A DNA stretch of 64,000 bases. Source: Paraburkholderia sabiae (lineage in GTDB: Bacteria > Pseudomonadota > Gammaproteobacteria > Burkholderiales > Burkholderiaceae). Both the position numbers and the translations under genes were made by a program. Shown in pieces: positions 21,535 to 61,093 of this stretch; positions within the stretch are counted from its first letter, which is position 1, and each line of letters opens with the position of its first letter. The stretch covers positions 5,580,001 to 5,644,000 of the forward strand of contig NZ_CP125295.1 of assembly GCF_030412785.1 (NCBI RefSeq). Reading direction: 5' to 3'. The notes under the pieces were generated by a model, which did no database searches, was not told where the DNA came from, and saw nothing but the letters and a program-made list of their open reading frames with translations.

Positions 21535-21636
21535 GGCATCCGCGGTTTCGTAGCGGTTTGCTAGCGTCGCCCCTGTGCGGGGCGGCACCTACTTTTCTTT
21601 GCAGCGGCAAAGAAAAGTAGGCAAAAGAAAGCCGCT
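21535..21636 (+). repeat. 102-bp family repeat, copy A1
   Basis: Runs from GGCATCCGCG to AAAGCCGCT. It contains the small hairpin CCCCTGTGCGGGG and the large one, CCTACTTTTCTTTGC-AGCG-GCAAAGAAAAGTAGG split as 15-4-15 at 21588-21621. Confidence 0.95.
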
Positions 21637-22080
21637 CACACCGCTAATTCTGGTGTTTGCCTGCGGGCCCCCGAAGGGTCCCGTACTCCACACGGCATCG
21701 CATCTTTCCACGCGTGTTGCCAGCGCCTTGAACAGGCGCATCACCCACTTCAATCACCCGTTGCGCAGCCAGTGGCAGCGACTCGTCCGCGCCGCCCAGG
21801 TGGCAAACTGTGTGTAGGTTGCCGCGCCTGATGCGTTGGCGCTTCTACGACACCGATCCCGCTTTTCAGTCCGGAGTGGTGCACTTGCGGCGCGACCGCC
21901 TGCACACAGTTTGCCACCTGGGCGGCCGTGGACTGCCTGGTAACGCGGTAAGTGGCGCGGGCGTGCGAAGCGGGTGATGCGTGCAGTTAGCACGCTGGCA
22001 ACGGGCACGAAAAAGTGTGTTGCCGCACGAAGGACGGGGACGTTGAGAGCCCCTGGGCAAACACAAGAATTGGCGGTGTG

Positions 22081-22182
22081 AGCGGCTTTCTTTTGCCTAC
22101 TTTTCTTTGCCGCTGCAAAGAAAAGTAGGTGCCGCCCCGCACAGGGGCAACGCTAGCAAACCGCTACGAAACCGCGGATGCC
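22081..22182 (-). repeat. 102-bp family repeat, copy A2
   Basis: Inverted partner of A1, same length, with the 15-4-15 stem intact. Confidence 0.95.
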
Positions 22183-22249
22183 AGCGAAGAAGAAAAGCGA
22201 AAAGCAAAAACCAGAATAGCGACTAGCGTCGCAGACAAAAAAAAGCGGA

Positions 22250-23155
22250 TTAACTCGCGCCCACAGTACGAGCCGCCTCACGCCCATTCCGCCGATAAGC
22301 CCACAACAACATAACAACACCAGCGATGATCATAGGCAACGACAACCACTGCCCCATGGACAACCCAAGCGCGAGCAGCCCAAGAAAATCATCCGGCTCG
22401 CGAGCAAACTCGACGGTAAACCGCGCCAGGCCGTAGCCAATGAGAAACACAGCAGAAGCAGCCCCAACAGGCCGCGGCTTCCGCGAAAAGAACCAAAGCA
22501 CGAGAAACAGCACGACACCTTCGAGAGCAATCTCATACAACTGCGACGGATGCCGCGGCAGCATGTGATATTGCGCGAACACATCGGCGAGATGCCATTG
22601 CGCAGCCTGCGCCGGATGCGCAGCAAGCCAACCCGCGTCTTCGTTCGCGGCACCCGGGAACAGCATCGCCCAAGGCGCATCGGGCGACGTCACGCGCCCC
22701 CACAACTCGCCATTGATGAAGTTCCCAAGCCGCCCCGCCGCGAGACCCGTCGGCACCATCGGCGCGACGAAGTCCGTCACCTGCAGCCACGTACGCTTGC
22801 GCTGCCACGCGAACAGGATCATCGCGAGCGTCACGCCGAGAAAGCCGCCGTGGAACGACATGCCGCCTTCCCAGACCTTGAAGACATCGAGAGGATGCGC
22901 GAAGTACCAGCTCGCCTTGTAGAACAGCACGTAGCCAAGACGACCGCCGAGGATCGTGCCGAGCACGCCGTAGAACAGCATGTCGTCGATGTCCTTCGGG
23001 GTCCAGCCTTGCGCGGCGACATGCGGCAGACGCAGCCGCAGTCGGCCCACGACGATCGCCATGACGAAGGCGACCAGATACATCAGGCCGTACCAGCGGA
23101 CGGCGAGCGGCCCCAGATGGATGGCGACGGGATCGAAATTCGGGTGGATGTGCAT
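22250..23155 (-). CDS. lgt: Prolipoprotein diacylglyceryl transferase
   Basis: Inner-membrane enzyme that attaches diacylglycerol to the lipobox cysteine of prelipoproteins. It has 301 residues and about seven membrane helices. The Lgt signature [14 protein letters not shown] is present near the middle, with [10 protein letters not shown] and the N-terminal [13 protein letters not shown] motif. Its stop codon lies within 5 bases of the outer arm of element A. The upstream gap to the LysR gene is short and shows nothing further. Confidence 0.97.
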
Positions 23156-23225
23156 CGTATCGTTATAGGGGTTCGGGGATTCTGAAGCTCAAGCGCATTG
23201 GACGCGCGTAACGGCAAAGCGTTCG

Positions 23226-24179
23226 CTAGCCGGCAAGCATATCGGCGTGCGCGCGCACGATGTCGATGAAACCGGCCAGCACGGGACTCACCTCAGCCGT
23301 GCGCCACACGAGCCCCGTGACGACAGCAGGCACCGCCTCGCGCAACGGACGATACACCACGCCCGTGCGCCGCAGGTTACGCAGCGATTGCGGCACGAGT
23401 GCGACGCCCATGCCCGCCGACACGAGGCTTACGATCGTCTGCATCTGGATCGCTTCCTGGCCGATGCGCGGCGTGAGTCCCGCTGCGCCGTAGCAATCCA
23501 TAATGATGTCATAAAAGCCTGGCGCCAGACGCCTTGGAAAAACGACCAGCGGTGCATCGCCCGCTTGCGCGAGGCTCAAGGGCTCATCGCGCCATTCGGC
23601 GGCAGCCTGCTCGCGGCTTTCGATCCGCGCCGCCATTTCCGTCGACATCGCAATCACCAGCGGCTCGCGCGCGAGCGGCAGCCACGACAGCTGCGATGCG
23701 TAACGCGGCGGCGGCGGTCCGATCACGAGGCCCGCGTCGATGCGCCCCGCCACCAGTTCGTCGATCTGCACGTCGCTCGTCGCTTCGAGCAGTTCGAGCC
23801 GCACGCGCGCATGCCGCGTGCCGAACTCGCGCAACAGCGGCGGCAAGAGACCGTAATCAGCCGTCGACACGAATGCCAGCGACAGCACGCCCGCCTCGCC
23901 CCGCGCGAGACTCTGCGCCAGCGGCCGCAGCCCTTCCGCGCTCGCGAGCAATCTGCGAACCTCCGGCAGCAGGTCTGCGCCGACGGGCGTCAGCTCGACC
24001 GAGCGCTTCGTGCGCGCGAACAGTTCGACGCCGAGCGTGTCTTCGAGCGCGCGAATGGCCTGCGACAGCGGCGGCTGCGTCATCGACAGCCGCGCCGCCG
24101 CGCGTCCGAAGTGCTTCTCTTCGGCGACGGTCACGAAGTAGCGCAGCTGGCGCAGATCGGGTATCGAAGGCAGACTCAT
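23226..24179 (-). CDS. LysR-family transcriptional regulator, divergent from ilvD
   Basis: A 317-residue regulator. The N-terminal winged HTH covers about residues 8-66 (LRQLRYFVTVAEEKHFGRAA, MTQPPLSQAIRALEDTLGVELF), followed by a type 2 periplasmic-like effector domain. It faces ilvD across 158 bases that are unusually AT-rich for this window. That layout suggests it controls ilvD and perhaps itself, with an intermediate or product as coinducer; this is inference. The ligand cannot be read from sequence. Confidence 0.9.
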   Translation of the reverse strand: MSLPSIPDLRQLRYFVTVAEEKHFGRAAARLSMTQPPLSQAIRALEDTLGVELFARTKRSVELTPVGADLLPEVRRLLASAEGLRPLAQSLARGEAGVLSLAFVSTADYGLLPPLLREFGTRHARVRLELLEATSDVQIDELVAGRIDAGLVIGPPPPRYASQLSWLPLAREPLVIAMSTEMAARIESREQAAAEWRDEPLSLAQAGDAPLVVFPRRLAPGFYDIIMDCYGAAGLTPRIGQEAIQMQTIVSLVSAGMGVALVPQSLRNLRRTGVVYRPLREAVPAVVTGLVWRTAEVSPVLAGFIDIVRAHADMLAG

Positions 24180-24337
24180 TGATACATTTTACGACCTAAT
24201 AGGCCATGAATAATATATTGGACATTCGTTTGCACAAACTCCATTCTTGTCCCACGCGCCGCCCGACCTAGACTAAAGAACTGCGCCGGAAGCCACGAGC
24301 AAGGCGGCGCATACCAAAACAACTGATGGAGCTCCCC
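24180..24337. promoter_or_regulatory. Divergent AT-rich control region between the LysR gene and ilvD
   Basis: Contains ATTTTACGACCTAATAGG and ATGAATAATATATTGGAC around 24187-24223, much richer in A and T than the flanking genes. A TTGGAC at about 24218 could be a -35 element. A LysR binding site (T-N11-A type) is expected here, but I cannot single one out with confidence. Confidence 0.4.
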
Positions 24338-26011
24338 ATGCCGTACAACCGTCGTTCGAAGAACATCACGCAAGGCGTCGCGCGTTCGCCGAACCGCTCG
24401 ATGTATTACGCGCTCGGCTATCAGAAGGCAGACTTCGACAAGCCTATGATCGGCATCGCCAACGGCCACTCGACCATCACGCCGTGCAACGCGGGCCTGC
24501 AACGCCTCGCCGACGCCGCCGTCGAAGCCGTCAAGCGCAGCGACGCGAATCCGCAGACCTTCGGTACGCCGACCATTTCGGACGGCATGTCAATGGGCAC
24601 GGAAGGCATGAAGTACTCGCTCGTGTCGCGCGAAGTGATCGCCGACTGTATCGAGACCTGCGTGCAGGGCCAGTGGATGGACGGCGTCGTCGTGATCGGC
24701 GGCTGCGACAAGAACATGCCGGGCGGCATGATCGGCCTCGCGCGCATGAATGTCCCCGGCATCTACATTTATGGAGGGACGATCAGGCCGGGCAACTGGA
24801 AAGGCATCGACCTGACCATCGTGTCGTCGTTCGAAGCGGTGGGCGAATTCACAGCGGGCCGCATGTCGCAGGAAGACTTCGAAGGTGTCGAACAGAACGC
24901 CTGCCCGACCACGGGCTCGTGCGGCGGCATGTACACGGCCAACACGATGAGTTCTTCGTTCGAGGCGCTCGGCATGTCGCTGATGTATTCGTCGACGATG
25001 GCGAACCCCGACCAGGAGAAAGTGGATTCGGCCGCCGAGTCTGCGCGCGTGCTGGTCGAGGCTGTCAAGATAGATCTCAAGCCGCGCGACATCATCACGA
25101 AGAAGTCGATCGAAAACGCCGTCGCGCTGATCATGGCGACGGGCGGCTCGACGAATGCCGTGCTCCACTATCTGGCGATCGCGCATGCGGCGGAAGTCGC
25201 ATGGACGATCGAGGACTTCGAGCGCATGCGCAAGAAAGTGCCCGTCATCTGCGATCTGAAGCCCTCGGGCAAGTACGTTGCGACCGATTTGCACAAGGCA
25301 GGCGGCATCCCGCAGGTGCTCAAGCTGCTGCTCGACGCGGGCATGCTGCATGGCGACTGCATGACGATCACGGGCAAGACGATCGCCGAGGAACTGAAGG
25401 ACGTGCCCAGCAAACCGCGCGCGGACCAGAAGGTCATCTATCCGATCGACAAGGCGCTCTACAGCGAAGGCCATCTCGCGATCCTCAAGGGCAACCTCGC
25501 GGAAGACGGCGCGGTCGCGAAGATCACCGGCCTGAAGAACCCGGTCATCACCGGCCCGGCGCGCGTGTTCGACGACGAACAAAGCGCGATGGAAGCGATT
25601 CTCGCCGACAAGATCAAGGCGGGCGACGTCGTCGTGTTGCGCTATCTCGGCCCGCAAGGCGGTCCGGGGATGCCGGAAATGCTCGCGCCGACGTCGGCGA
25701 TCATCGGCAAGGGATTGGGGGAATCCGTCGGCCTCATCACCGATGGCCGCTTCTCGGGCGGCACGTGGGGCATGGTCGTGGGACACGTTGCGCCGGAAGC
25801 GTTCGTCGGCGGCACGATCGCGCTCGTTCAGGAAGGCGACTCGATCACCATCGACGCGCACAAGCTGCTCTTGCAACTGAACGTCGACGACGGCGAACTG
25901 CAGCGCCGACGCGGCGCGTGGAAGCAACCTGCGCCGCGCTACACGCGGGGCGTGCTGGCCAAGTTCGCGGCGCTCGCGAAACCGGCCAACAAGGGCGCCG
26001 TCACGGGTTGA
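24338..26011 (+). CDS. ilvD: Dihydroxy-acid dehydratase
   Basis: Dehydrates 2,3-dihydroxy-3-methyl acids in valine, leucine and isoleucine synthesis. It has 557 residues. Fe-S ligands expected from the family are present: Cys50 ([10 protein letters not shown]), Cys123 ([11 protein letters not shown]) and Cys195 ([15 protein letters not shown]). The C-terminal [21 protein letters not shown] motif is intact. I use the ATG at 24338 because GGAG stands 8 bases before it; an ATG at 24326 would add four residues. The gene stands alone with its divergent LysR regulator. Confidence 0.96.
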
Positions 26012-26084
26012 TCCTGCTGCGTTCGGTGCGCGCCGCGACTGACGCGGCGCAGCATCGTCATGCTGCAGGCAACGCTTCGATCGA

Positions 26085-26118
26085 CAAAGGGGCACACGGA
26101 TCGCCGTGTGCCCCTTTG
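26085..26118 (+). terminator. 15-bp perfect hairpin after ilvD, abutting the next promoter
   Basis: CAAAGGGGCACACGG at 26085-26099 pairs exactly with CCGTGTGCCCCTTTG at 26104-26118 around a 4-nt loop. A consensus -10 TATAAT follows at 26123-26128 and probably serves the cytochrome gene. Confidence 0.8.
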
Positions 26119-26170
26119 CTCTTATAATGCGTCCACCACGAGCCGGGCACAGTCACCGGCGGAGACCATA

Positions 26171-26497
26171 ATGAAATCGAAGTCGTATGCGGCATTCCTG
26201 CTGGCAGGCACTTTGGCATTCACCGGCGCAGCGAGCGCGGAACCGGCTCAAGGGCTTGCGCTCGCACAGAAACAGAACTGCATGAGCTGCCATTCGGTGA
26301 CGCGGCAATTCATGGGACCGTCGCTGCACGATGTCGCCGCGAAATACGCGTCCCGCAGCGACGCCGTCCACTACCTCACGCGCAAGATCCTCGATGGCAG
26401 CGCGGGCGTCTGGGGCACCGTACCGATGCCCGCGAACACCCAGCTCACACCCGACGAAGCCACCTCGCTGGCAAGCTGGATCCTCACGCTCAAATAA
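26171..26497 (+). CDS. Small class I cytochrome c (c551/c552 type)
   Basis: A 108-residue exported monoheme cytochrome. The signal peptide ends at about residue 23 (GAASA). Heme attachment is CMSCH at residues 37-41, and the likely axial Met86 lies in GTVPMPANTQL. The size and spacing fit a periplasmic electron carrier to an oxidase or other terminal reductase; the partner is not encoded nearby. GGAGA precedes the ATG at 26171. It converges on DUF2486. Confidence 0.92.
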   Translation: MKSKSYAAFLLAGTLAFTGAASAEPAQGLALAQKQNCMSCHSVTRQFMGPSLHDVAAKYASRSDAVHYLTRKILDGSAGVWGTVPMPANTQLTPDEATSLASWILTLK

Positions 26498-26515
26498 TCT
26501 CCCGCGACGCCCGGC

Positions 26516-27271
26516 CTACTTCTTTGTCGTCGAGTTGCCGAGTTCTTCGCGGATCGCCTCGCGCACCCAGCTGAGCATCTCCGTTTCCAGCGCGAGCGCC
26601 ACTTCCCGGGTGATCTGATTGACGAGCCAGGTCGTGTGATCCTGGAACGCGTCGCGGCAGCGCGCCTCGATCAGATTCCGCCCATCCCCTTTCAGATACG
26701 TCGCAAAACGGCCGCGCAGACGCTCGGCCAGGACGTCGGCATCGTAGTCGGAATTGACGGCGGGCGCGCCCGCGTGCTCCGGCTGCGTCGAAGTCGAACT
26801 CAGATCGGGCGGCGCGACATAGCGCTCTGCCGTCGAGCCCGAGGTGAACTCCGCTTCACCCGGCACGAATTGCGCGGGTTCGCGTGCGGGTGCATGCGAC
26901 GCTTCGGGCGCGTGCTGCGCGGCGGATTCCTCAGGCTGAAGCGCGTGCTGGCTCAGATCGTCCGGCGATTCGTAGATGGAATCGAGCAGCGGCACGTCGT
27001 CATCGTCGGCGTGAGGCGCTGCCGGTTCGGCTTGCGCCGATGGCTGTGGTGCGGCCTCGTGCTCGTCGTGACGTGCTTCATGTTCCGAGGCATGTTCCAC
27101 TTCATGCTCGCCCCCATGCGCCGACCGATGCTTGCGTGCATGCGAACCGTCATGCTCATGCGAACCGCCACGCTTGCCGCGCCTGCTCTTCGCATGCGGG
27201 TCGTGACCCGTCTCCATCACGTCGGTCAGAAGGGGGATGTCTTGATCGGAAGAGTCGGAAGAATGGGACAC
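26516..27271 (-). CDS. DUF2486 family protein with histidine-rich low-complexity region
   Basis: A 251-residue protein that opens MSHSSDSSDQDIPLLTDVME and repeats a similar DDDVPLLDSIYE near residue 93. Between them is a stretch very rich in His, Glu and Ala (about residues 38-74). The C-terminal 80 residues are ordered and helical (AERLRGRFATYLKGDGRNLI, VNQITREVALALETEM). It matches the Burkholderia-group DUF2486 family located beside holC. No signal peptide or known catalytic motif is seen; the function is unknown. The His-rich part could bind metal, which is a guess from composition. Confidence 0.82.
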   Translation of the reverse strand: MSHSSDSSDQDIPLLTDVMETGHDPHAKSRRGKRGGSHEHDGSHARKHRSAHGGEHEVEHASEHEARHDEHEAAPQPSAQAEPAAPHADDDDVPLLDSIYESPDDLSQHALQPEESAAQHAPEASHAPAREPAQFVPGEAEFTSGSTAERYVAPPDLSSTSTQPEHAGAPAVNSDYDADVLAERLRGRFATYLKGDGRNLIEARCRDAFQDHTTWLVNQITREVALALETEMLSWVREAIREELGNSTTKK

Positions 27272-27364
27272 GAAAACACTCCCTTTTTAGATCGGACGCG
27301 CCAATTCTGCGCCTATCGCACGCGACCGCGGGACAAGACCGCGCATCGAGCGGACAGAAACCGG

Positions 27365-27781
27365 TCAGGCGTCCTGCTTGTAGTTGTTCAAAGCATAGCC
27401 GCGATCGCGATAGAAGCGATAGCGGTCGCGCCCCGCAGCCAGTTCGTCGGGTGCGTTGCCGACGATTTCCAGCAGACGCTCAAAGCGCGCGAACTGCGCC
27501 GGCACGGTCGCGCCCAGATTTAACAGTATCTGATGATGCGGCACGTCGTCGAGCGACGACGTCAGCACGACGGGCGTTTGCGCCGCGATCGGGCTCGCCG
27601 CGAGGCAGTGCGGGATGAAATCGAGTGCGGAGAAGGTCCACAACTGCTCGTCGAACGCGCGCAGACGGGGCGGCTCGGCCAGCACGATGAGCGGCTGGCC
27701 GGCCTGATACGCCTTGCGCACGAGACGGCACGCGTACAGCAGCGAATCGCCGACGTTCGAATGAAAGTCGATTCGGGTCAT
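27365..27781 (-). CDS. holC: DNA polymerase III subunit chi
   Basis: A 138-residue clamp-loader accessory subunit that links polymerase III to SSB. The family pattern is seen in MTRIDFHSNVGDSLLYACRL near the start, LWTFSALDFIPHC in the middle and RDRYRFYRDRGYALNNY at the end. The ATG at 27781 was chosen since the family begins with MTRIDF and AGGA precedes it. It lies 46 bases after pepA, the conserved pepA-holC order. Confidence 0.93.
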   Translation of the reverse strand: MTRIDFHSNVGDSLLYACRLVRKAYQAGQPLIVLAEPPRLRAFDEQLWTFSALDFIPHCLAASPIAAQTPVVLTSSLDDVPHHQILLNLGATVPAQFARFERLLEIVGNAPDELAAGRDRYRFYRDRGYALNNYKQDA

Positions 27782-27827
27782 CGGCGATCCTGCTTCACTG
27801 CGTTGCGCGTGATCCAACTGCTATACG

Positions 27828-30588: not shown

Positions 30589-30591
30589 CCG

Positions 30592-32168: not shown

Positions 32169-32201
32169 TTTTTTGTTTTTTGCTTTTGGTTGTTTTTCGC
32201 T

Positions 32202-32303
32202 GGCATCCGCGAATTCGTATCGGTCTGCTAGCGTTGCCCCTGTGCGGGGCGGCACCTACTTTTCTTTGCAGCGGCAAAGAAAAGTAGGCAAAAGAAAGCC
32301 GCT
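32202..32303 (+). repeat. 102-bp family repeat, copy B1
   Basis: Same architecture as A1, with the 15-4-15 stem intact. Confidence 0.95.
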
Positions 32304-32620
32304 TTTGTACCTCCGGTGCCGGCCAGAATAACGCTACGGCACAGGTTCTCTGAGCTGTCGCGCAGCGACCCCCGCACTCCGTAGAAAGCCCGCAGTCAAC
32401 CGCGCACGGCGCGCGCCCCACACAGTCTGGAGCACATACCGCCGCAATCAAACCGATAGCAAAGACACGAGAACAAGCTGACCGAATGTGCCCCAGGTGG
32501 ATGTCATATTTCGCGCTGCGCGCGCCTGACTGCGGGCTTTCTACGGAGTGTTCGCGTCGCTGCGCGACAGCTCAAAGAACATGTGTTGTGGCGTTATCCT
32601 GGCGGGCACCGGAGGTTTGA

Positions 32621-32722
32621 AGCGGCTTTCTTTTGCCTACTTTTCTTTGCCGCTGCAAAGAAAAGTAGGTGCCGCCCCGCACAGGGGCAACGCTAGCAAA
32701 CCGATACGAAACCGCGGACGCC
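32621..32722 (-). repeat. 102-bp family repeat, copy B2
   Basis: Inverted partner of B1, with the stem intact. Confidence 0.95.
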
Positions 32723-32750
32723 AGCGAAAAAAAGAGCGGCCCATGCCCGC

Positions 32751-47528: not shown

Positions 47529-47584
47529 GGCTTCTGTCTCCTGTTTGTCTTCGTCAATGGAACTGCTCTTTCGGGTCTTTCGCT

Positions 47585-47687
47585 TGCATCCGCGATTTCG
47601 TATCCGTACTTCATGCGTCGCCCCTGTGCGGGGCGGCACCTACTTTTCTTTGCAGCGGCAAAGAAAAGTAGGCAAAAGAAAGCCGCT
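47585..47687 (+). repeat. Family repeat, copy C1 (103 bp)
   Basis: One base longer than the others in its first 45 bases and slightly diverged there (TCCGTACTTCATGCG); the 15-4-15 stem is intact. Confidence 0.93.
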
Positions 47688-48021
47688 TCAAACCTCCGGT
47701 GCCTGCCAGGTTCGCGCTGCGCCATGCCGCAGTTGAGCTATCGCGCAGCGACGCCAACACTCCGTAGAAAGCCCGCAGTCAACCGCGCATAGCGCGAAAA
47801 CCCGCACACGGTCTGGAGCACATAACGCCGCAATCAGACCGACGGCAAACACACAAAAACAAGCACACAAAAACAAGCCGACCGAACGTGCTCCAGGTGG
47901 ATGTCATCTTTCGCGCCGCGCGCCCCTGACTGCGGGCGTTCTACGGAGTGTTGGCGTCACTGCGCGACAGCTCAAAGAACGTGTGCCGTGGCGTTATCCT
48001 GGCCGGCACTGGAGGTTCAAA

Positions 48022-48123
48022 AGCGGCTTTCTTTTGCCTACTTTTCTTTGCCGCTGCAAAGAAAAGTAGGTGCCGCCCCGCACAGGGGCAACGCTAATAG
48101 ACCGAAAACATAGAGCGGATGCC
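48022..48123 (-). repeat. Family repeat, copy C2
   Basis: Inverted partner of C1; the outer end is diverged (AGACCGAAAACATAGAGC) but the stem is intact. Confidence 0.93.
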
Positions 48124-48133
48124 ACCAAAAGAA

Positions 48134-49147
48134 TCACCGCCGCCCTCGCTGCAAGAAAGCGACAACAATAATGACAACACCCTGCACAGCAGCATTCAAA
48201 TAAACGCTAATGACGCTAGTGAGATTAAGAATATTAGCGATGACAGAGAGCAGCACAGCCCCAATAACAGTACCAACAACACGCCCTTCACCGCCCTTAA
48301 GCGCGGTGCCACCAACCACAACAGCAGCGATAGCTTCAAGTTCCCAAAGCAAACCCGTAGTAGGCGTCGCAGACCCAAGCCGAGGCACATAAAGCACAGT
48401 AGCAACCCCAACACAAATCCCTAGCAAAACATAAGTCACGATCTTGACGGTATCGACACGAATAGCGGCATAACGAGCGACCTGTTCATTGGAGCCGATA
48501 GCCTGCACATGCCGCCCAAACGCCGTGCGATTCAGAATCAATGCACCGCCAGCGGCAACAACAAGAAACACCCAGATAGGCACAGGCACACCAAACAGAC
48601 TCGCGTAATAAACAGGCCCATAGAGATCGGAAAGATTGTTATCCAAAGTCAACGCGCCACCGTCAGCAAGCCACGTCAGCACAGCACGAAAAATCCCCAA
48701 CGTCCCAAGCGTGACGATAAAAGGCTCGATACGCCCTTTGGTAATGAGCAACCCGTGAGCGCACCCAAACGCGCCGCCGAGCACAAAAGCACTCCCAATC
48801 CCGATCAACACAATCGTCAAAGGCGCAAACGCATGACCGCCTGGTGACGCAGCCAGCGCATTCATCAACCAGATCATGCTGCCCGCAATCAACGCAGCCA
48901 TCGACCCAACAGAAAGATCGATCCCGCCAGAAATAATCACGAAGGTCATGCCGACAGCAATGATCCCGATGAACGACGTGCGCGTGAGCACATTCATCAT
49001 GTTGTCGACGGTGGCGAAATCGCGATTGAGCAGCGTGCCCGCAATGCACAGCACGATCAGACCGGCCAGCGGCCCCAGCCCGTGCAGGCGATGCGCAATC
49101 CGCATCGCGCGTCCCGCCGGCGCGGCGTCAGTGTGTGCCCGTTGCAT
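48134..49147 (-). CDS. Sugar ABC transporter permease (RbsC-like)
   Basis: A 337-residue permease with eight or more hydrophobic helices. [20 protein letters not shown] and [22 protein letters not shown] are the RbsC-family hallmarks. The start overlaps the ATPase gene by 20 bases. It forms the transmembrane channel with the ATPase upstream and the binding protein beyond element C. Confidence 0.93.
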
Positions 49148-53641: not shown

Positions 53642-55062
53642 AAACCTACTTCTCGCGTCGCGCTTCGACCCGCCCCTTAGTCGCCGTGCTACTCGCGGCC
53701 AGCATCACGCTGAGCGCATGTGGCGGCGGTGGCGGCAGCGATAACAGTTCCGGCCCAGCGGTAACCAATACCGCACCGAAGAGACCGGCGGGCTCGGCCA
53801 GCACGCCTGCGGCAGCCAGTTCGCCGACGGGTGCGAGTACGCCTTCGGCAGCAACGCCCGCAAGCGGAACGAGCACGGCGAACAACGACACTAACCAGAC
53901 CGGCAACAACACCAACACCAACACCAACGATCCGCCGCCCGTCGTCGTCAACAGCGTCCCCATCACAATCGACAACACGCTCGACCCAACGATCGTCAAC
54001 ACGCCGTATGTCAGCGTGACACTCTGCGTGCCGGGCGCGCAGAGCGCATCTCAGTGCCTAACGCTGGATCACATGCTGCTCGACACAGGCTCGGTTGGCG
54101 TACGCGTGATGTCGTCAGCTCTCGGCGCGGCGCTCGCCGGCAAATTGCCCGTGCAGACAGGGGCGTCGAATGATTCGACGGGCAAGGCGCCGCTCGCACA
54201 GTGCGCGCTCTTCGCTTCCGGCTACACGTGGGGTCCGATACGCCGCGCCGACGTGAAGATCGGCGGCGAGACGGCGAGCGACCTCCCGATCCAGTTGATC
54301 GGCGACAGCGGCTTCACGTTGATACCCTCCGACTGCATCAGGCGCGGCGTACACAGCATGAACACCGTGCAGGATCTGGGCGCGAACGGCATCGTCGGCA
54401 TCGGCCATCTGGCGCGTGACTTTCCGGAAGCGGCGCAAGCGACGCTCGCGGCCACGTACTACTACTGTCAGACGTCGTGGTCGTGTGCCGCCGCGAGCGT
54501 ACCGCTCGCGAGTCAGACGGCCAACCCCGTTTCCGCCTTCGCGACCGACAACAACGGCACGATCATCCGCCTGCCCGCACTGCCGGCAACGGGCCGGGCG
54601 ACCGTAACGGGTGAACTGCTGTTCGGCATCGGCACGCGCGACAACAATGCGCTGCCTGCCAACGCCACGCGACTCAACGTGTCGGATCGCGGACTGTTCA
54701 ACACGACCTATGGCGGAAGCACGATGTCGAGCGTCGTCGATAGCGGATCGAACGGGCTGTTCTTCCAGGATTCGACGCTGCCCGTTTCTGCGCCGAGCAA
54801 CGGCTGGTATATACCCGCTACCACCCAGAACCTGAGCGCGTCAATGATCTCGAAAACGGGCGACGTCCGCTCGACGGTCCCGTTCGCCATCGCCAATTCG
54901 TCGAACCTGTTCGCGCTGGGCTACGCCGCGCACGACAATCTCGGCGCACCGCTCAACAGCATGTTCATGTGGGGCTTGCCGTTCTTCTACGGACGCAGCG
55001 TCTATACGGTGCTGAGCGACGCGTATGCAGGCTCCCAGAAGGGACCTTACGTCGCCTTCTGA
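53638..55062 (+). CDS. DUF3443 lipoprotein with aspartic-peptidase-like motifs
   Basis: A 474-residue protein. The lipobox LSAC (Cys28) predicts lipidation; residues 29-105 are a Ser/Thr/Asn/Pro-rich linker. Two Asp motifs follow: LLDTGSVGVRV (Asp149) and VVDSGSNGLFF (Asp368). About 100 residues after the first is GANGIVGIGHL, and near the end FMWGLPFFYGRSVYTVL. This order (DTGS, xGIxGxG, DSGS, then a LG-x-x-F motif) is what pepsin-like bilobal aspartic peptidases show. Assignment to DUF3443 is firm; peptidase activity is inference. Confidence 0.85.
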   Translation: MKTYFSRRASTRPLVAVLLAASITLSACGGGGGSDNSSGPAVTNTAPKRPAGSASTPAAASSPTGASTPSAATPASGTSTANNDTNQTGNNTNTNTNDPPPVVVNSVPITIDNTLDPTIVNTPYVSVTLCVPGAQSASQCLTLDHMLLDTGSVGVRVMSSALGAALAGKLPVQTGASNDSTGKAPLAQCALFASGYTWGPIRRADVKIGGETASDLPIQLIGDSGFTLIPSDCIRRGVHSMNTVQDLGANGIVGIGHLARDFPEAAQATLAATYYYCQTSWSCAAASVPLASQTANPVSAFATDNNGTIIRLPALPATGRATVTGELLFGIGTRDNNALPANATRLNVSDRGLFNTTYGGSTMSSVVDSGSNGLFFQDSTLPVSAPSNGWYIPATTQNLSASMISKTGDVRSTVPFAIANSSNLFALGYAAHDNLGAPLNSMFMWGLPFFYGRSVYTVLSDAYAGSQKGPYVAF

Positions 55063-55079
55063 TCGCGGCACACTCAAGC

Positions 55080-55119
55080 AAAACGGCGGATGGGCCTGCA
55101 ACCCATCCGCCGTTTTTTT
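55080..55119 (+). terminator. Intrinsic terminator after the DUF3443 gene
   Basis: CGGCGGATGGG at 55084-55094 pairs exactly with CCCATCCGCCG at 55102-55112, followed by seven T residues. Confidence 0.95.
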
Positions 55120-55372
55120 ATTGCCCACGGTACCACGGTAAGCACGCGCCCAACCGTGCACAACCGGGCAGCGACGATGCACCGACGTCGCGCCCGCGAA
55201 TCTGAAGAATCGCGCCGCACGCTCCGTTGCAGCGCGGCGCGCACCTGAACGAGGCGCGGCCCCTTGCGCTGCACCGCTTTCGCGCCCAGCGCGCATAACG
55301 TCTCGTGCGACCGCACCGCCAGCGAGCCGCTTTGCAGCAAGCGCGGCGCGCATCGGCGCGCCCGACGCAAAG

Positions 55373-55389
55373 TTGGCATATGCCTTGCA
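55373..55389 (+). promoter_or_regulatory. Sigma-54 promoter for the urea transporter operon
   Basis: TTGGCATATGCCTTGCA has the invariant GG (55375-55376) and GC (55387-55388) exactly 10 bases apart, the -24/-12 pattern of sigma-54. It lies about 100 bases before urtA. Nitrogen-responsive control by NtrC would fit urea import. Upstream TGCACC half-sites (for example near 55271) could be NtrC contacts, but none is a complete site. The rest of the gap 55120-55487 shows no gene. Confidence 0.8.
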
Positions 55390-55487
55390 GTATCCGGCCC
55401 GGCAACAGTCCACACACATAACCAGACAAGCAAGGACACGCGCAGTCCGTCCGCCACTCGTCACCATCCTATGGCAAGGGGAAGCAC

Positions 55488-56789
55488 ATGAAACGTCGCA
55501 GTCTGCTGAAGCTCGGCTCCATGTCGGGCGCGCTCGCGCTCGCGGGCAAGGTTCCTTTCGCGCATGCCGATACGGGCAGCGGCCCGATCAAGGTCGGCAT
55601 CCTGCATTCCCTGTCGGGCACGATGGCGATCTCGGAGACGTCGCTGAAAGACACGGCGCTGATGACGATCGCCGAAATCAACGCGAGCGGCGGCGTGATG
55701 GGCCGCAAGCTCGAACCCGTCGTCGTCGATCCCGCATCGAACTGGCCGCTCTTCGCCGAGAAAGCCCGCCAGCTTCTGACGCAGGACAAGGTCGCGTGCG
55801 TGTTCGGGTGCTGGACGTCCGTGTCGCGCAAGTCGGTACTGCCCGTGTTCGAGGAACTGAACGGCCTGCTCTTCTACCCGGTGCAATACGAAGGCGAAGA
55901 GATGTCGCGCAACGTGTTCTACACGGGCGCAGCGCCGAACCAGCAGGCGATCCCCGCCACCGAATATCTGATGAGCGCGGAAGGCGGCGGCGCCAAGCGC
56001 TTCTTCCTGCTCGGAACCGACTATGTGTACCCCCGCACGACCAACAAGATTCTGCGCGCCTTCCTCAAGTCGAAAGGCGTCCAGGAAACCGACATCCAGG
56101 AGGTCTACACGCCGTTCGGCCACAGCGACTATCAGACGATCGTCGCGAGCATCAAGACCTTCTCGCAGGGCGGCAAGACCTGCGTGATCTCGACGGTGAA
56201 CGGCGACTCGAACGTGCCTTTCTACAAGGAACTCGGCAACCAGGGGCTGAAGGCGACCGACGTGCCCGTCGTCGCGTTCTCGGTCGGCGAAGAAGAGCTG
56301 CGCGGCATCGACACGAAGCCGCTGGTCGGCAACCTCGCCGCGTGGAACTACTTCATGTCGGTGAAGGGTCCGGGCAACACGAAGTTCAAGGAACAGTGGG
56401 CCGCGTGGGTCAAGTCGCAGAATCTGCCGGGCGGCACGAAGCGCGTGACCAACGACCCGATGGAAGCGACCTACGTCGGCATTCACATGTGGAAGCAGGC
56501 CGTCGAAAAAGCGAAGAGCACCGACGTCGACAAGGTGCGCGTCGCGATGGTCGGCCAGAAGTTCGCGGCGCCGTCGGGCTTCACGCTCGAGATGGACGGC
56601 AATCACCATCTGCACAAGCCGGTGATGATCGGCGAAGTGCGCGCGGACGGCCAGTTCAACGTCGTGTGGAAGACGAAGACCGCGATCCGTGCGCAGCCTT
56701 GGAGTCCGTATATCGCAGGCAATCAGGGCAAGCCGGATGTGGTCACCTCGATTCCCGAGTTTTTGCGGCGACGTTCGCGCGTCGCGTGA
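55488..56789 (+). CDS. urtA: Urea ABC transporter substrate-binding protein
   Basis: A 433-residue binding protein. The N-terminus MKRRSLLKLGSMSGALALAG looks like a twin-arginine signal. IKVGILHSLSGTMAISETSL, VFGCWTSVSRKSVLPVFEEL, LLFYPVQYEGEE and FFLLGTDYVYPRTTNK are UrtA signatures that separate it from LivJ-type proteins. It captures urea in the periplasm for UrtBCDE. First gene of the operon. Confidence 0.96.
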   Translation: MKRRSLLKLGSMSGALALAGKVPFAHADTGSGPIKVGILHSLSGTMAISETSLKDTALMTIAEINASGGVMGRKLEPVVVDPASNWPLFAEKARQLLTQDKVACVFGCWTSVSRKSVLPVFEELNGLLFYPVQYEGEEMSRNVFYTGAAPNQQAIPATEYLMSAEGGGAKRFFLLGTDYVYPRTTNKILRAFLKSKGVQETDIQEVYTPFGHSDYQTIVASIKTFSQGGKTCVISTVNGDSNVPFYKELGNQGLKATDVPVVAFSVGEEELRGIDTKPLVGNLAAWNYFMSVKGPGNTKFKEQWAAWVKSQNLPGGTKRVTNDPMEATYVGIHMWKQAVEKAKSTDVDKVRVAMVGQKFAAPSGFTLEMDGNHHLHKPVMIGEVRADGQFNVVWKTKTAIRAQPWSPYIAGNQGKPDVVTSIPEFLRRRSRVA

Positions 56790-56820
56790 CCTGATGCTCG
56801 CGTGACGTAATGCAAACGAC

Positions 56821-56846
56821 GGTGCGCCCTCTACGGACGGCGCACC
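56821..56846 (+). terminator. Hairpin between urtA and urtB
   Basis: GGTGCGCC pairs exactly with GGCGCACC around a 10-nt loop, with no T run. It lies between the binding-protein gene and the first permease gene, where partial termination or 3'-end protection would give more UrtA than membrane components. Confidence 0.45.
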
Positions 56847-56880
56847 TCACCCGCCTGCTGGCCTCTCATTCAAGCACAAC

Positions 56881-58500
56881 ATGGCGTACTCACTTTCCAC
56901 GCTCGCGGCTCGCGGCCTGCTCATCGCAGCGCTGGCTGTTCTTTTGCCGGCGAGCGCCCACGCACTGACGACCGACGAAGTCGCGCCGCTCGCCGGTGAC
57001 GATTTCGACGCGAAGTCGGCAGCCATCGACAAGCTGATCGCGAATCACGATGCGCCCTCGCTTGCGCTGCTGAAGGCGCTCTCCGAAGACAGCGCGCTTG
57101 CCACCGATAGCGGCGAAGTCCTGATACAGGACGGCGACACTTCACACGACGCTTTAACCGGAAAAACAGTCGCCGCCGGCGACGCGCAGCCGGTCACACT
57201 GAACAACCTGTTGCGCTCGAAAGTCGCGGGCGCATTGTCGGGCCTGCAACTCGAATCGCCCGACGCTGAAAAACGCGCCGCCGCGATCGCTGCGCTGCTA
57301 AAGAACCCCGATCCTTCGATGAAGCCGCAGATCGACGCCGCGCGCGCGAAGGAAACCGATCCGACGCTGAAGAAGCGTCTCGACACGCTCTGGGCGATGA
57401 CGGCGCTGCACGACAGCGATGCCGCGAAGCGCCTCGAAGCCGTGAAGCTCGTCGCCGCACGTCACGATCTCGAGATGTACGAACTGCTGCGCCCGCTCGT
57501 TGCGAAGAAGCCGAACGGCACGTTCGTCGAAAGCGATCCGCTGGTGCGCGAGACGGCGCAGCAAGGCATCGATGCGCTCGATTCGATCCAGCGCCGCAGC
57601 GAGATCGTGGGGACGCTGTTCGCGGGTCTGTCGCTCGGCAGCGTGCTGCTGCTCGCGGCGCTCGGTCTTGCGATCACGTATGGCCTGATCGGCGTGATCA
57701 ACATGGCGCACGGCGAGTTCCTGATGATCGGTGCCTATGCGACTTATGTCGTGCAGAACCTCGTGCAGCGCTACATGCCGGGCGCGTTCGACTGGTATCC
57801 GCTGCTCGCCGTGCCCGCTTCGTTCGTGGTGGCCGCGCTCGTCGGCATCGTGCTCGAACGGCTCGTTTTGAAGCACCTGTACGGACGTCCGCTCGAAACG
57901 CTGCTGACCACGTTCGGCGTCAGCCTGATCCTGATCCAGGCGACGCGCATGCTGTTCGGCGCGCAGAACGTGCAGGTCGTGAATCCTTCGTGGATGAGCG
58001 GCGGCGTCACGGTGATGCAGAACCTGATCCTGCCATACAACCGGCTCGCGATCCTCGCGTTCTCGCTGATCGTCGTCGCGATCGCGTGGGCCGTGCTGAC
58101 GAAGACGCGCCTCGGTCTCTTCGTGCGCGCCGTCACGCAGAATCGCCGGATGGCCGCATGCGTCGGCGTGAAGACCGCGTACGTCGATTCGTATGCGTTC
58201 GCGTTCGGTGCGGGCATCGCAGGACTCGGCGGCTGCGCGCTGTCGCAGATCGGCAATGTCGGGCCGGACCTCGGGCAGAGCTACATCATCGATTCGTTCA
58301 TGGCCGTCGTGCTGGGCGGCGTCGGCCAGCTGGCGGGGACGGTGATCGGCGGCTTCGGGCTGGGTCTCGTCAGCAAGGCCGTCGAGCCGTTCTGGGGCGC
58401 CGTGCTCGCGAAGATCGCGGTGCTCGTGCTGATCGTGCTGTTCATCCAGAAGCGTCCGCAGGGCATGTTCGCCCTCAAGGGCCGCAGCGCGGAGGCGTGA
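56881..58500 (+). CDS. urtB: Urea ABC transporter permease UrtB
   Basis: A 539-residue permease. A signal-like N-terminus is followed by a 200-residue periplasmic helical region (residues about 30-235) that is characteristic of UrtB and absent from ordinary LivH. The membrane part starts at GTLFAGLSLGSVLLLAALGL and includes VINMAHGEFLMIGAYATYV and GGCALSQIGNVGPDLGQSYI. urtC starts 1 base after its stop. Confidence 0.95.
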   Translation: MAYSLSTLAARGLLIAALAVLLPASAHALTTDEVAPLAGDDFDAKSAAIDKLIANHDAPSLALLKALSEDSALATDSGEVLIQDGDTSHDALTGKTVAAGDAQPVTLNNLLRSKVAGALSGLQLESPDAEKRAAAIAALLKNPDPSMKPQIDAARAKETDPTLKKRLDTLWAMTALHDSDAAKRLEAVKLVAARHDLEMYELLRPLVAKKPNGTFVESDPLVRETAQQGIDALDSIQRRSEIVGTLFAGLSLGSVLLLAALGLAITYGLIGVINMAHGEFLMIGAYATYVVQNLVQRYMPGAFDWYPLLAVPASFVVAALVGIVLERLVLKHLYGRPLETLLTTFGVSLILIQATRMLFGAQNVQVVNPSWMSGGVTVMQNLILPYNRLAILAFSLIVVAIAWAVLTKTRLGLFVRAVTQNRRMAACVGVKTAYVDSYAFAFGAGIAGLGGCALSQIGNVGPDLGQSYIIDSFMAVVLGGVGQLAGTVIGGFGLGLVSKAVEPFWGAVLAKIAVLVLIVLFIQKRPQGMFALKGRSAEA

Positions 58501-58501
58501 C

Positions 58502-59695
58502 ATGACATCGGCGACTTCTCATGCTTCCGCTTCGGCTGCTTTGAATGCACGCGGCGTTGCGGCTGCCAACGAGCGCGAACGTCTCGAAGGCTTCGCGCTC
58601 GGCTTGCCGCCGCGCCCTGCCCTGTTGTCGAGGCGCGCGTGGCAGTTCCTGATTGCGCTGATCGTCGTGATCGGACTCGGCGTGCCGTTCACCGCGCTCG
58701 TGCTGCCGGAGACCAGCACGTTCCATCTGTCCGCGTATGCGATGACGCTTGCGGGCAAGCTGATGTGCTACGCGATCGCCGCGCTCGCGCTCGATCTCGT
58801 GTGGGGTTACTGCGGCATCCTGAGCCTCGGGCACGGCCTGTTCTTCGCGCTCGGCGGTTACGCGATCGGCATGTACCTGATGCGCGCGATCGGTCACGAC
58901 GGCAAGTACGGCAGCGATCTGCCCGACTTCATGGTGTTTCTCGACTGGCATCAATTGCCGTGGTACTGGGAAGGCACGCAGCATCTCGCGTATGCGCTGT
59001 TGCTGGTTGTGCTGGTGCCCGCCGTGATCGCGTGGGTGTTCGGCTTCTTCACGTTCCGCTCACGCGTGAAGGGCGTGTATCTGTCGATCATCACGCAGGC
59101 GATGACGTTCGCCGCGATGCTGCTGTTCTATCGCAACGAGACGGGCTTCGGCGGCAACAACGGCTTCACCGATTTCAAGCGCATCGCGGGCTTTCCGATC
59201 ACGCATCCGGGCACGCGCACGGTGCTCTTCCTGATGACGTTCGGCGTGCTGGTGCTTTCGTTCATCGGCGCGCGCGCGATCGTGACGTCGAAGCTCGGAC
59301 GCGTCGTGACAGCCGTGCGCGACGGCGAAACGCGTTTGATGTTTCTCGGCTACAGCCCGCTCGCGTACAAGCTCTTCGTGTGGACGGTGTCGGCCGTGTT
59401 GTGCGGCATCGCGGGCGCGCTGTATGTGCCGCAGGTCGGCATCATCAATCCGGGCGAGATGTCGCCGGGCAACTCGATCGAAATGGCGATCTGGGTCGCA
59501 GTCGGCGGACGCGGCACGTTGATCGGACCGATCATCGGCGCGTTTGCGGTGAATGGCGCGAAGAGCTTTTTCACGGCCTATTTCGCCGAGTACTGGCTGT
59601 TCTTCCTGGGACTGATTTTCGTGCTGGTGCCGTTGCTGCTGCCGAACGGGATCATGGGACTGTTTGAACTCATTGCACGCAGGAGGAACCGTTGA
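58502..59695 (+). CDS. urtC: Urea ABC transporter permease UrtC
   Basis: A 397-residue LivM-like permease with about ten membrane helices. LDLVWGYCGILSLGHGLFFA, RNETGFGGNNGFTDFK and GRGTLIGPIIGAFAVNGAKS are UrtC markers. An alanine-rich N-terminal leader of about 45 residues precedes the first helix. Its stop overlaps the urtD start by 4 bases. Confidence 0.95.
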   Translation: MTSATSHASASAALNARGVAAANERERLEGFALGLPPRPALLSRRAWQFLIALIVVIGLGVPFTALVLPETSTFHLSAYAMTLAGKLMCYAIAALALDLVWGYCGILSLGHGLFFALGGYAIGMYLMRAIGHDGKYGSDLPDFMVFLDWHQLPWYWEGTQHLAYALLLVVLVPAVIAWVFGFFTFRSRVKGVYLSIITQAMTFAAMLLFYRNETGFGGNNGFTDFKRIAGFPITHPGTRTVLFLMTFGVLVLSFIGARAIVTSKLGRVVTAVRDGETRLMFLGYSPLAYKLFVWTVSAVLCGIAGALYVPQVGIINPGEMSPGNSIEMAIWVAVGGRGTLIGPIIGAFAVNGAKSFFTAYFAEYWLFFLGLIFVLVPLLLPNGIMGLFELIARRRNR

Positions 59696-60549
59696 TGAAC
59701 GAAAACCCGATGGTTCCCGATCTCGCGCTGCCTGAAGAGCATGCATTGTCGGGGGTCGCTTCGTTGGGGCGCGCGGTGGTGCCTGGCGAGATCGACGTAT
59801 CGCACGGCGCGATTCTGTATCTGGAAGACGTGACCGTTTCATTCGATGGCTTTCGCGCGTTGAATGCGTTGTCGCTGTCGATCGACGTGGGCGAACTGCG
59901 TTGCATCATCGGCCCGAACGGCGCGGGCAAGACGACGATGATGGACGTGATTACGGGCAAGACATCGCCCGATACGGGCAAGGTGTTTCTGGGGCAGACG
60001 ATCGACCTCACGCGCATGAACGAGCCTTCGATTGCGCGCGCGGGCATTGGCCGCAAGTTTCAGAAGCCGACTGTGTTCGAGCAGCATCCCGTGTGGGAGA
60101 ACCTCGAACTTGCGATGAAGATGGATAAGGGGTGGGTTGCTTCGCTGCGCGCGCGGTTGGATCGTTCTGCGCAGGCGCGGATTGAGGAGACTTTGTCTTT
60201 GATTCGGCTTGAAGGCGAGGCTTTACGGCCTGCTGGCGAGTTGTCGCATGGGCAGAAACAGCGTCTCGAGATTGGAATGTTGCTTATGCAGCAACCTGCT
60301 TTGTTGCTGCTCGATGAGCCTGCGGCTGGTATGACCGACGATGAGACTATGGAATTGGCCGCTCTCCTGAACCACTTGCGTGGGACCTGTTCCATGATGG
60401 TCGTTGAGCATGATATGGAGTTTGTGGCTGCTCTGGCCGGTGACACCGGCAAGGTTACTGTTATGGCTGAGGGCCGTGTTCTTGCCGAAGGCACTCTTGA
60501 TCATGTGAAACGCGATTCGGCTGTTGTTGAGAGTTATCTCGGGCGGTAG
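59692..60549 (+). CDS. urtD: Urea ABC transporter ATPase UrtD
   Basis: A 285-residue LivG-like ATPase with an N-terminal extension of about 40 residues before the domain. Walker A GPNGAGKTTMM lies near residues 77-87, the signature is LSHGQKQRLEIGMLL, and Walker B LLLDEPAAGMTDDE. The last third is noticeably poorer in GC at third positions than urtABC. Its stop lies 21 bases before repeat D1. Confidence 0.94.
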   Translation: MMNENPMVPDLALPEEHALSGVASLGRAVVPGEIDVSHGAILYLEDVTVSFDGFRALNALSLSIDVGELRCIIGPNGAGKTTMMDVITGKTSPDTGKVFLGQTIDLTRMNEPSIARAGIGRKFQKPTVFEQHPVWENLELAMKMDKGWVASLRARLDRSAQARIEETLSLIRLEGEALRPAGELSHGQKQRLEIGMLLMQQPALLLLDEPAAGMTDDETMELAALLNHLRGTCSMMVVEHDMEFVAALAGDTGKVTVMAEGRVLAEGTLDHVKRDSAVVESYLGR

Positions 60550-60570
60550 TAGTGAGGTTTTTGCTGCGTT

Positions 60571-60672
60571 GGCATCCGCGTTTTCGTATCGGTCTATTAG
60601 CGTTGCCCCTGTGCGGGGCGGCACCTACTTTTCTTTGCAGCGGCAAAGAAAAGTAGGCAAAAGAAAGCCGCT
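60571..60672 (+). repeat. 102-bp family repeat, copy D1
   Basis: Full-length copy with the 15-4-15 stem intact. Confidence 0.95.
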
Positions 60673-60991
60673 TCAAACCTCCGGTGCCAGCCACGATAGC
60701 GCTACGGCACACTGTCCTTGAGTTGTCGCGCAACGACGCAAACACTCCGTAGAAAGCCCGCAGTCAGGCGCGCGCGGCGCGCAAGATGACATCCACTCGG
60801 GGCACATTCGGTCGGCTTGTTTTTTTGCGTTTGCCGTCGCTCTGATTGCGGCGGTATGTGCTCCAGACTGTGTGTGGGTTTTCGCGCCGTGCGCGGTTAA
60901 CTGCGGGCTTTCTACGGAGTGCGAGGGTCGCTGCGCGACAACTCAAGGACAGTGTGCCGTAGCGCTATCGTGGCTGGCACCGGAGGGTTAA

Positions 60992-61093
60992 AGCGGCTTT
61001 CTTTTGCCTACTTTTCTTTGCCGCTGCAAAGAAAAGTAGGTGCCGCCCCGCACAGGGGCAACGCTAACAAACCGATACGTCAACGCGGATGCC
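60992..61093 (-). repeat. 102-bp family repeat, copy D2
   Basis: Inverted partner of D1, with the stem intact. Confidence 0.95.

Follow-up and report, generated by a model that had tools for sequence, protein, structure and literature searches.

Intergenic elements of Paraburkholderia sabiae built from inverted pairs of a predicted triple-helix pseudoknot

Arrangement and anatomy of the paired elements

The window analysed here is a stretch of 64,000 nucleotides from Paraburkholderia sabiae (contig NZ_CP125295.1, positions 5,580,001 to 5,644,000), and it contains four intergenic elements, each composed of two inverted arms that carry the same hairpin repeat. Elements 1 and 2 lie between convergent genes, and elements 3 and 4 are situated inside apparent operons. 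The operon around element 3 presumably encodes a sugar ATP-binding cassette (ABC) transporter, with the permease gene ending at 48134 and a binding-protein gene downstream, and we take the neighbours of element 4 to be urtD (end 60549) and urtE (start taken as the ATG at 61143) of a urea-transport operon; these assignments are assumptions made from the translations. A first-pass annotation of the window had reported eight copies of the repeat in four head-to-head pairs, and both the copies and their arrangement were recovered, with stem-pattern matches at 21590, 22098, 32257, 32638, 47641, 48039, 60626 and 61009. The spacing within the pairs, taken from the copy starts given in that annotation, is 546, 419, 437 and 421 bp. 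The perfect 15-bp stem (CCTACTTTTCTTTGC / GCAAAGAAAAGTAGG) with its 4-nt loop is the same in all eight arms, and the long inverted arms that had been described are also present, extending over 247 nt at 90% complementarity in element 4. No open reading frame (ORF) lies wholly between the two arms in the ORF listings of any window element.

The core of the arm, read outward, is identical in the eight copies and corresponds to GGCTTTCTTTTGCC TACTTTTCTTTGC-CGCT-GCAAAGAAAAGTA GGTGCCGCCCCGCA. The order of parts on the outward strand is a flank (X', AGCGGC), a third strand (UUUCUUUU), a single G, the 5' strand of the stem (CCUACUUUUCUUUGC), the loop, the 3' strand of the stem (GCAAAGAAAAGUAGG) and a GC hairpin (GCCCC-GCACA-GGGGC). 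The flank X' is complementary to the loop together with the top of the stem, and the third strand is a mirror copy of the homopurine tract of the stem. X', the third strand and the stem are thus arranged as in an H-type pseudoknot whose pyrimidine loop occupies the major groove, and each arm is predicted to form such a pseudoknot with a triple helix, flanked by the GC hairpin. The mirror third strand, the loop-flank complementarity and the GC hairpin were not part of the first-pass annotation, nor was the match to an Rfam family described below.

Folding without pseudoknots gave -37.8 to -40.1 kcal/mol for five outward arms (z -4.6 to -5.5) and -37.3 kcal/mol (z -3.8) for the single inward strand that was tried. 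A covariance model (R1 in Table 1), the building of which had been proposed at the outset, found the eight window arms at full length on the outward strand with 66 to 69 bits; it also returned eight partial hits on the opposite strand, which cover the stem palindrome, and one match at chance level. Element 4 yielded no promoter-like site.

Table 1. Coordinates of the paired elements in the window and of features within them
Feature	Position	Strand	Basis or remarks
Element 1	21461..22249		Fills the gap from one convergent stop codon to the other; 508-type interior
Element 1, left arm (predicted triple-helix pseudoknot and GC hairpin, outward strand)	21563..21639	-	Model R1, 68.3 bits, full length
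Element 1, right arm	22078..22154	+	Model R1, 68.9 bits
Element 1, left, 15-bp stem and 4-nt loop	21588..21621		Stem pattern and model R1
Element 1, right, 15-bp stem and 4-nt loop	22096..22129		Stem pattern and model R1
Element 2	32169..32750		Between convergent genes (ends 32168 + and 32751 -); 383-type interior
Element 2, left arm	32230..32306	-	Model R1, 66.3 bits
Element 2, right arm	32618..32694	+	Model R1, 68.9 bits
Element 3	47553..48133 (left edge approximate)		383-type interior; apparent - strand operon, upstream gene ends 48134
Element 3, left arm	47614..47690	-	Model R1, 68.6 bits
Element 3, right arm	48019..48095	+	Model R1, 66.3 bits; RF02421 match 48060-48157 overlaps second half
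Element 4	60550..61142		Gap between two ABC ATPase genes; 383-type interior
Element 4, left arm	60599..60675	-	Model R1, 68.9 bits
Element 4, right arm	60989..61065	+	Model R1, 66.6 bits
Element 4, right arm, AGCGGC, pairing with loop bases GCCGCU 61020-61025 (predicted pseudoknot helix)	60992..60997	+	Sequence and covariation
Element 4, right arm, predicted third strand UUUCUUUU, mirrors UUUUCUUU of stem	60998..61005	+	Sequence and mirror covariation
Element 4, right arm, 15-bp stem and loop	61007..61040	+	Stem pattern and model R1
Element 4, left arm, GC hairpin then U-rich tract, terminator-like on inward strand	60602..60622	+	
Element 4, right arm, GC hairpin then U-rich tract, terminator-like on inward strand	61042..61062	-	

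Covariation, pairing and spread

Arms for comparison were gathered from GTDB species genomes (at least 120 loci), 398 sampled genomes of the phylum and viral contigs. The loci were fetched mostly by stem patterns that fix the inner stem and leave the third strand, loop and flank free. Among the named sources are Caballeronia, Ralstonia, Variovorax, Herbaspirillum, Xanthomonas, Lysobacter, Pseudomonas, Methylomonas, Dechloromonas, Rodentibacter, Haemophilus, Quinella and Selenomonas; sources that are metagenome bins may be mis-binned.

Where the stem differs between these taxa, the third strand differs with it. In an unfiltered count, stems with three A's beyond the G are accompanied by three A's before the third-strand G in 161 of 197 arms (the remainder comprising 6 with two A's, 1 with four and 29 lacking such a tract), and stems with four A's by a third strand with four A's in 33 of 37, the other 4 having no tract, which amounts to 7 mismatching arms and 33 without a third strand. 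A stricter parse, confined to arms in which an A-G-A tract follows the stem (as were the GGA-hairpin and stem-extension counts below) and additionally dropping arms near a locus end, gave agreement in the mirror position of the G for all 203 arms (163 and 40) and agreement of the tract on the other side of the G for 178. As direct repetition would predict the opposite order for asymmetric tracts, it is mirror and not direct symmetry that is kept. The shifted mirror also appears in 15 of 18 loci with long-stem arms from viral contigs and so is not confined to Paraburkholderia.

The helices covary as well. The complementary run between loop and flank has a mean length of 4.35 bases, against 2.55 +- 0.07 in shuffled controls (160 unique pairs; z 24.5), and 4.30 against 2.68 +- 0.08 had been obtained before with 131 arms. 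In alignment A1, for which 26 of 51 arms were picked for constant register and which is therefore biased upward, 39 double-sided changes were counted versus 15.0 +- 3.7, a value reached in none of 500 shuffles. In alignment A2 (51 of 99 arms, with some cells off register) the two helices jointly show 99 double-sided changes versus 52.1 +- 5.7; the loop helix is paired in 59.9% of cells, a figure that we think is lowered partly by register shift introduced by MAFFT. A 3-bp extension of the stem has Watson-Crick pairs at its second and third positions in 106 and 104 of 113 arms (58 and 51 when shuffled), and the GC hairpin scores 15.0 versus 11.4 +- 0.2 (171 regions). The compensatory changes that the first-pass annotation proposed to look for are therefore present in the stem extension and the loop-flank helix, and the arms have what is expected of an H-type pseudoknot RNA, namely two covarying helices and a third strand in mirror order. 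Of the possibilities raised in the first-pass annotation, a structured RNA is the one supported by this covariation, and also by the strand-specific hairpins in relatives described at the end of this section.

The genome-wide search for the stem that had been suggested returned 197 long stems with at most two mismatches in the 9.9-Mb, four-contig genome and none in the reversed control, together with 41 copies of a short form (ACTTTCTTTG...CAAAGAAAGT). Pairing was counted in 41 fetched loci from among the matches listed, all in the first half of contig C1, plus the window. With both stem forms included, 54 pairs and 3 lone arms were obtained (57 sites, 111 arms), several apparent singles of the long-stem search being hybrid pairs; copies at these sites are thus not mostly single, and the earlier statement that they never occur singly holds for 54 of the 57 if arms with the short stem are included. 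Of the three lone arms, two are surplus members of a single array, a tandem arrangement (locus L038, 2500-3800) in which two additional left arms follow at ~425-bp steps beside a normal pair. The interiors of the 54 pairs are of the 383 type in 51 and the 508 type in 3, and the arms are long and long in 44 and long/short hybrids in 10.

In other taxa (at least 120 GTDB loci, with the window's four pairs included), 46 of 54 pairs within 1.5 kb are head to head, and all but three of these 46 have their arms 339 to 665 bp apart. Outside the Burkholderia group, paired elements were seen in Variovorax, Xenophilus, Dechloromonas, Pseudomonas, Herminiimonas, a Neisseriaceae isolate and Methylomonas, and the two arms of one pair often differ in their stems. 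The covariance model matched 62 of 398 genomes of the phylum sample (40 of 212 genera) at E <= 0.001, 18 of which belong to one distant family with mostly weak matches that may be due to chance. Within the genus, 58 genomes including this one contain between 0 and 365 long-form and 0 to 279 short-form copies, with at least one copy in 45. Element-like matches were found in 22 plasmid records, all from Paraburkholderia, Burkholderia or Caballeronia, none of which covers 80% of an element. A search of viral contigs with the purine half only gave 86 anchors, of which 2 had intact stems and 5 more had stems with two mismatches; with so few intact stems, the purine half by itself mostly marks chance matches there. 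Four contigs of one genome (G282; C6, C14, C27 and C28) begin ~50 bases or less from an arm, and the repeats seem to break assemblies.

In some relatives the arm is accompanied by a further structure. Of 230 arms, 27 have a perfect hairpin with an A-N-GGA-N loop on the outward strand, within 200 nt on the inner side of the arm; none of the 230 has one on the inward strand, and none was seen outside the arm or after shuffling. This points to an RNA of the outward strand in those taxa. The stems of these hairpins vary between taxa and the loop is constant, as is the case for CsrA/RsmA sites. The arms could accordingly descend from a CsrA/RsmA-sponge RNA family, in which an ancestral small RNA combined GGA-loop hairpins with the triple-helix cap and the Paraburkholderia copies are derivatives devoid of CsrA sites. 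TwoAYGGAY (RF01731), an RNA proposed to bind CsrA (PMC4333381), resembles the hairpins that lie directly inside the arms of one Pseudomonas locus and one other genome. Its model matched both arms of the Pseudomonas element (41.8 and 38.3 bits) and one arm of the other genome (40.7 bits), all below the cut-off of 43 and involving model positions 45-113 only, not the pseudoknot. In the Pseudomonas punonensis locus concerned (L144), the two sub-cut-off RNAs, 7228-7292 (-) and 7457-7521 (+), are divergent within the paired element. The model found no match in 8 further loci and none at E up to 1 in the window (21000-62000), and the hairpin itself is restricted to just 27 of 230 arms, with none in the window. 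We consider such an origin to be very unlikely.

Gene context and orthologous sites

Gene contexts were derived with simple ORF scripts, leaving out gaps that these could not call. In this genome, 23 of 45 gaps with an element are convergent compared to 24 of 171 without (p 6e-7), and 1 of 45 is divergent compared to 47 of 171. Outside the Burkholderia group, assigned by record title or else by arm sequence, convergent gaps make up 22 of 63 with an element and 32 of 195 without (p 0.004), and divergent gaps 4 of 63 and 45 of 195 (p 0.003). The elements are therefore biased towards the 3' ends of genes.

The gap of element 1 (site 1) was compared across the best 30 of the 58 genomes of the genus, this one included, and was found to be filled in 6 and empty in 24. 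In 21 of the 24 empty gaps there is a canonical bidirectional terminator, in many cases GCCACGGCATGCCGTGGC accompanied by runs of A and T. None is present in the 6 filled gaps, which were scanned in full; at this site the element stands in place of an intrinsic terminator. In the filled genomes the element abuts the stop codon of the gene on its left (TGA-TTTTTT(T)); it takes the place of the entire spacer and extends from one stop codon to the other. The gap between urtD and urtE is filled in 9 of 18 resolved genomes, again counting this one, and empty in 9 (12 of the 30 loci were unresolved, 11 of them on the other strand). At sites 2, 3 and 4 the interior is of the 383 type here and of the 508 type in the typed filled relatives (four, three and three, respectively), and two further relatives carry neither interior marker at site 4. 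The interiors thus differ while site and arms stay, as would result from conversion or re-insertion.

The patchy distribution bears on the possibility, raised in the first-pass annotation, that the repeats are a mobile family. In its purest form this would be a selfish, non-autonomous element similar to a miniature inverted-repeat transposable element (MITE) or REPIN, with folded ends recognised by a transposase from elsewhere, and the 3'-end bias would reflect selection against harmful insertions. The range of 0 to 365 long and 0 to 279 short copies, the occurrence of both filled and empty orthologous sites, the hybrid pairs and the paired ends, which constitute terminal inverted repeats as in MITEs, are all in keeping with it. 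However, the comparison of orthologous gaps, which had been suggested as a means of finding target duplications, showed none at sites 1 and 2, where the flanks of empty sites are 13 to 21% diverged; the flush replacement of the entire spacer at site 1 is not readily accommodated either, and no larger autonomous copy is present among the pairs read. A RAYT transposase as helper was also considered and was dropped, there being no link with copy number in 20 genomes searched with PF01797. Strong matches (best E 1.6e-38 and 4.5e-23) were limited to two genomes with 0 and 25 long-form copies, and the only RAYT-type match common to all 20 is one weak conserved protein, present regardless of copy number. 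The fold is moreover conserved across classes, which might be needless for a mere end sequence. A spreading repeat family is thus supported by copy number and by the filled and empty sites, but a purely selfish element is, in our judgement, improbable.

Two relatives contain other insertions of roughly 1.1 to 1.3 kb within an arm. In genome G020 (L331) the insertion lies in the hairpin loop at site 1, and in G043 (L332) it lies at the end of the stem at site 2. These look like insertion sequences landing in the hairpin.

A proposed two-sided 3'-end module and its relation to known repeats

The reading that we favour, though tentatively, is that the elements are two-sided RNA 3'-end modules, capped by triple helices and spreading as selfish repeats. 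The outward strand of each arm would encode an RNA of ~77 nt comprising the H-type pseudoknot and then the GC hairpin, with the pyrimidine loop placed in the major groove of the A-U stem as U.A-U triples and one C+.G-C. Two back-to-back arms make up one element of ~550 to 800 bp at gene 3' ends, gaps between convergent genes being the commonest setting. Inward reading would produce a GC hairpin and U-rich tract like those of a weak terminator, and outward reading the stable triple-helix cap. The element may thereby attenuate or end transcripts arriving from both sides and shield upstream mRNA from 3' exonucleases, a protection that REP units are known to confer. It would further be able to replace an intrinsic terminator, and it would multiply as a repeat family whose copy interiors are replaced over time by gene conversion or re-insertion. 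This scheme supposes that the arms are transcribed in this genome and that the triple helix forms in the cell. A termination or mRNA-processing device was among the possibilities first listed; the position at gene 3' ends and the terminator replacement at one site support it, and the function is suggested by these sequence features.

Several observations weigh against this reading. Full termination at elements 3 and 4 would cut off the downstream gene of each apparent operon, so that partial termination or mRNA protection fits these better. In the scan that flags both arms of element 4 as terminator-like on the inward strand, such sites number 3 against 1.2 +- 1.1 in shuffles, which is near chance, and the inward U tract is interrupted such that a stricter terminator scan does not call the arms. 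Element 2 retains a canonical terminator at its right edge, and in the fetched parts of the genome canonical terminators occur in 2 of 23 convergent gaps with an element and 9 of 34 without (p 0.17), a difference that is not significant. The genomes filled at site 1 are closely related and may reflect a single event. With a cruder ORF call the contrast in gene context is weaker, 50 pairs being divided into 27 convergent, 17 codirectional and 6 divergent. Pairing, too, is not universal: single arms seem common outside the Burkholderia group, where the statement that copies never occur singly does not seem to hold, with at least 38 arms in other taxa lacking a mate within 1.5 kb and at least 33 more too near an end for a mate to be judged, although some mates may be missed by the exact-stem requirement of the GTDB scan. 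The GGA-loop hairpins are absent from the window's own arms, and a looser, fold-based count of them gives 37 of 223 outward, 4 inward and 15 shuffled. The use of G.U pairs shows no bias in the GC hairpin (161, with 178 in shuffled controls) and gives little strand signal in the loop helix (25 versus 19 gains), and the first pair of the stem extension, standard in 110 of 113 arms, has 40 G.U and 0 A.C on the outward strand compared to 35 and 2.3 in shuffled controls.

Three arms without a detected mate, from Rodentibacter (L159), Haemophilus quentini (L170) and a closely similar locus (L201), share a conserved stretch upstream on the outward strand that starts with CCCCATATAAATCGCC and ends with GATTTAACTGGGG or a near variant; this is possibly a separate small RNA.

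The absence of a clear G.U preference in two of three helices would be accounted for if the arms act as DNA. The mirror repeat would then form an intrastrand triplex in DNA made single-stranded by replication or transcription, serving as a site of instability or a protein-binding mark as has been proposed for BoxC/TM_ECO, and RNA would play no part. The strict mirror symmetry, the availability of canonical triads on both strands and the other insertions in the arm hairpin of two relatives are compatible with this, as is the abundance of triplex motifs in bacterial genomes reported in the available sections of PMC4666352. On the other hand, GGA-loop hairpins in the strict count are found on the outward strand only, the elements favour 3' ends and are nearly absent from divergent gaps, and the loop-flank helix adds a pseudoknot that the same sections do not describe for BoxC-type triplexes. 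We therefore regard a role purely as DNA as unlikely. A G.U bias of the GC hairpin at first seemed strong (145 versus 41 pairs) and was discarded, being equal to the shuffled control. Decay of the stem is likewise of little use in separating RNA from DNA, as mismatches are too few and most arms were fetched by exact stems.

In comparison to known systems, the elements and their arms share features with several families. The first-pass annotation recognised no named family, which is nearly right; half an arm, however, corresponds to Rfam RF02421 (Bp1_684), which all eight window arms match, one above the gathering score and seven below. The model of this Burkholderia small RNA (Bp1_Cand684) takes in the GC hairpin and the outward half of the stem, but it describes a single 113-nt RNA without the stem partner, third strand, pseudoknot or inverted pair. 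The accessible part of its source paper gives detection by RT-PCR of one copy in another species, with flanking genes pdhB and lpdA (PMC3521395).

BoxC, PIT and TM_ECO triplex repeats, as presented in the available text of PMC4666352, are likewise composed of pyrimidine, purine and mirror-purine blocks and are repeated, intergenic and sometimes in inverted pairs. The arms differ from them in being A/T-rich and nearly always paired here, and in having a longer stem, the loop-flank pseudoknot helix and the GC hairpin. The named BoxC/TM_ECO motif is G/C-rich with the consensus CCCTCNCCC...GGGNGAGGG (PMC4666352, same portion), to which the tract of the arms (TTTTCTTT / AAAGAAAA) does not conform. 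Intrastrand triplex repeats as such have been described before, and that study also counted A/T-rich ones, so single motifs of the arm family may already be in its database. Triplex elements of H. influenzae, credited there to Hoyne et al., may overlap the arm family, and the main text of the study makes no mention of Burkholderia.

The pseudoknots of telomerase RNA, SAM-II and preQ1-II are also H-type, and in them too a pyrimidine loop lies along the major groove of an A-U stem, but the arms occur in inverted pairs and without a ligand or telomerase context, and their triple helix is a prediction. REP, BIME and REPIN repeats resemble the elements as extragenic palindromes that number hundreds per genome, alternate in orientation and are located at gene 3' ends. 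The elements are far larger, contain the pseudoknot and show no RAYT link in the 20 genomes searched; a GTAG or CGTC tag is not conserved across taxa, the stem ends being variable (A2 columns 49-53).

Among the window and the loci scanned, Rfam has no family for the pseudoknot itself. The pseudoknot, the pair and the 3'-end role were not found described in a literature search of open-licence papers, which is weak evidence of absence, and the available portions of two structured-RNA surveys (PMC2864571, PMC8632094) include no description of the pseudoknot or the pair. The fold is hardly described so far and recurs in distant bacteria. A broader proposal, which is possible but which we hold with more doubt than the 3'-end module itself, is that the arms represent a class of small structured RNA that crosses phyla and has so far gone unrecognised, in the form of a pseudoknot capped by a triple helix; in some lineages it would be joined by CsrA-binding hairpins, and it would make up paired selfish 3'-end modules able to replace intrinsic terminators. 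If these proposals are true, telomerase-type triple helices would be common in bacterial intergenic DNA, beyond rare riboswitches, and hundreds of unannotated repeats per genome would be explained by a portable 3'-end element, with site 1 providing an example of a terminator replaced by a spreading repeat. Mirror covariation would in that case be a purely sequence-based sign of a triple helix, usable to look for others.

Additional Rfam matches were recorded. In another genome of the genus, ncS54 (RF02871) is found at 2524-2598 (-) of locus L116, ~1 kb or less from an arm. Elsewhere in the window, 6S RNA is matched at 19771-19952 (+) and a cobalamin riboswitch at 18538-18801 (-).

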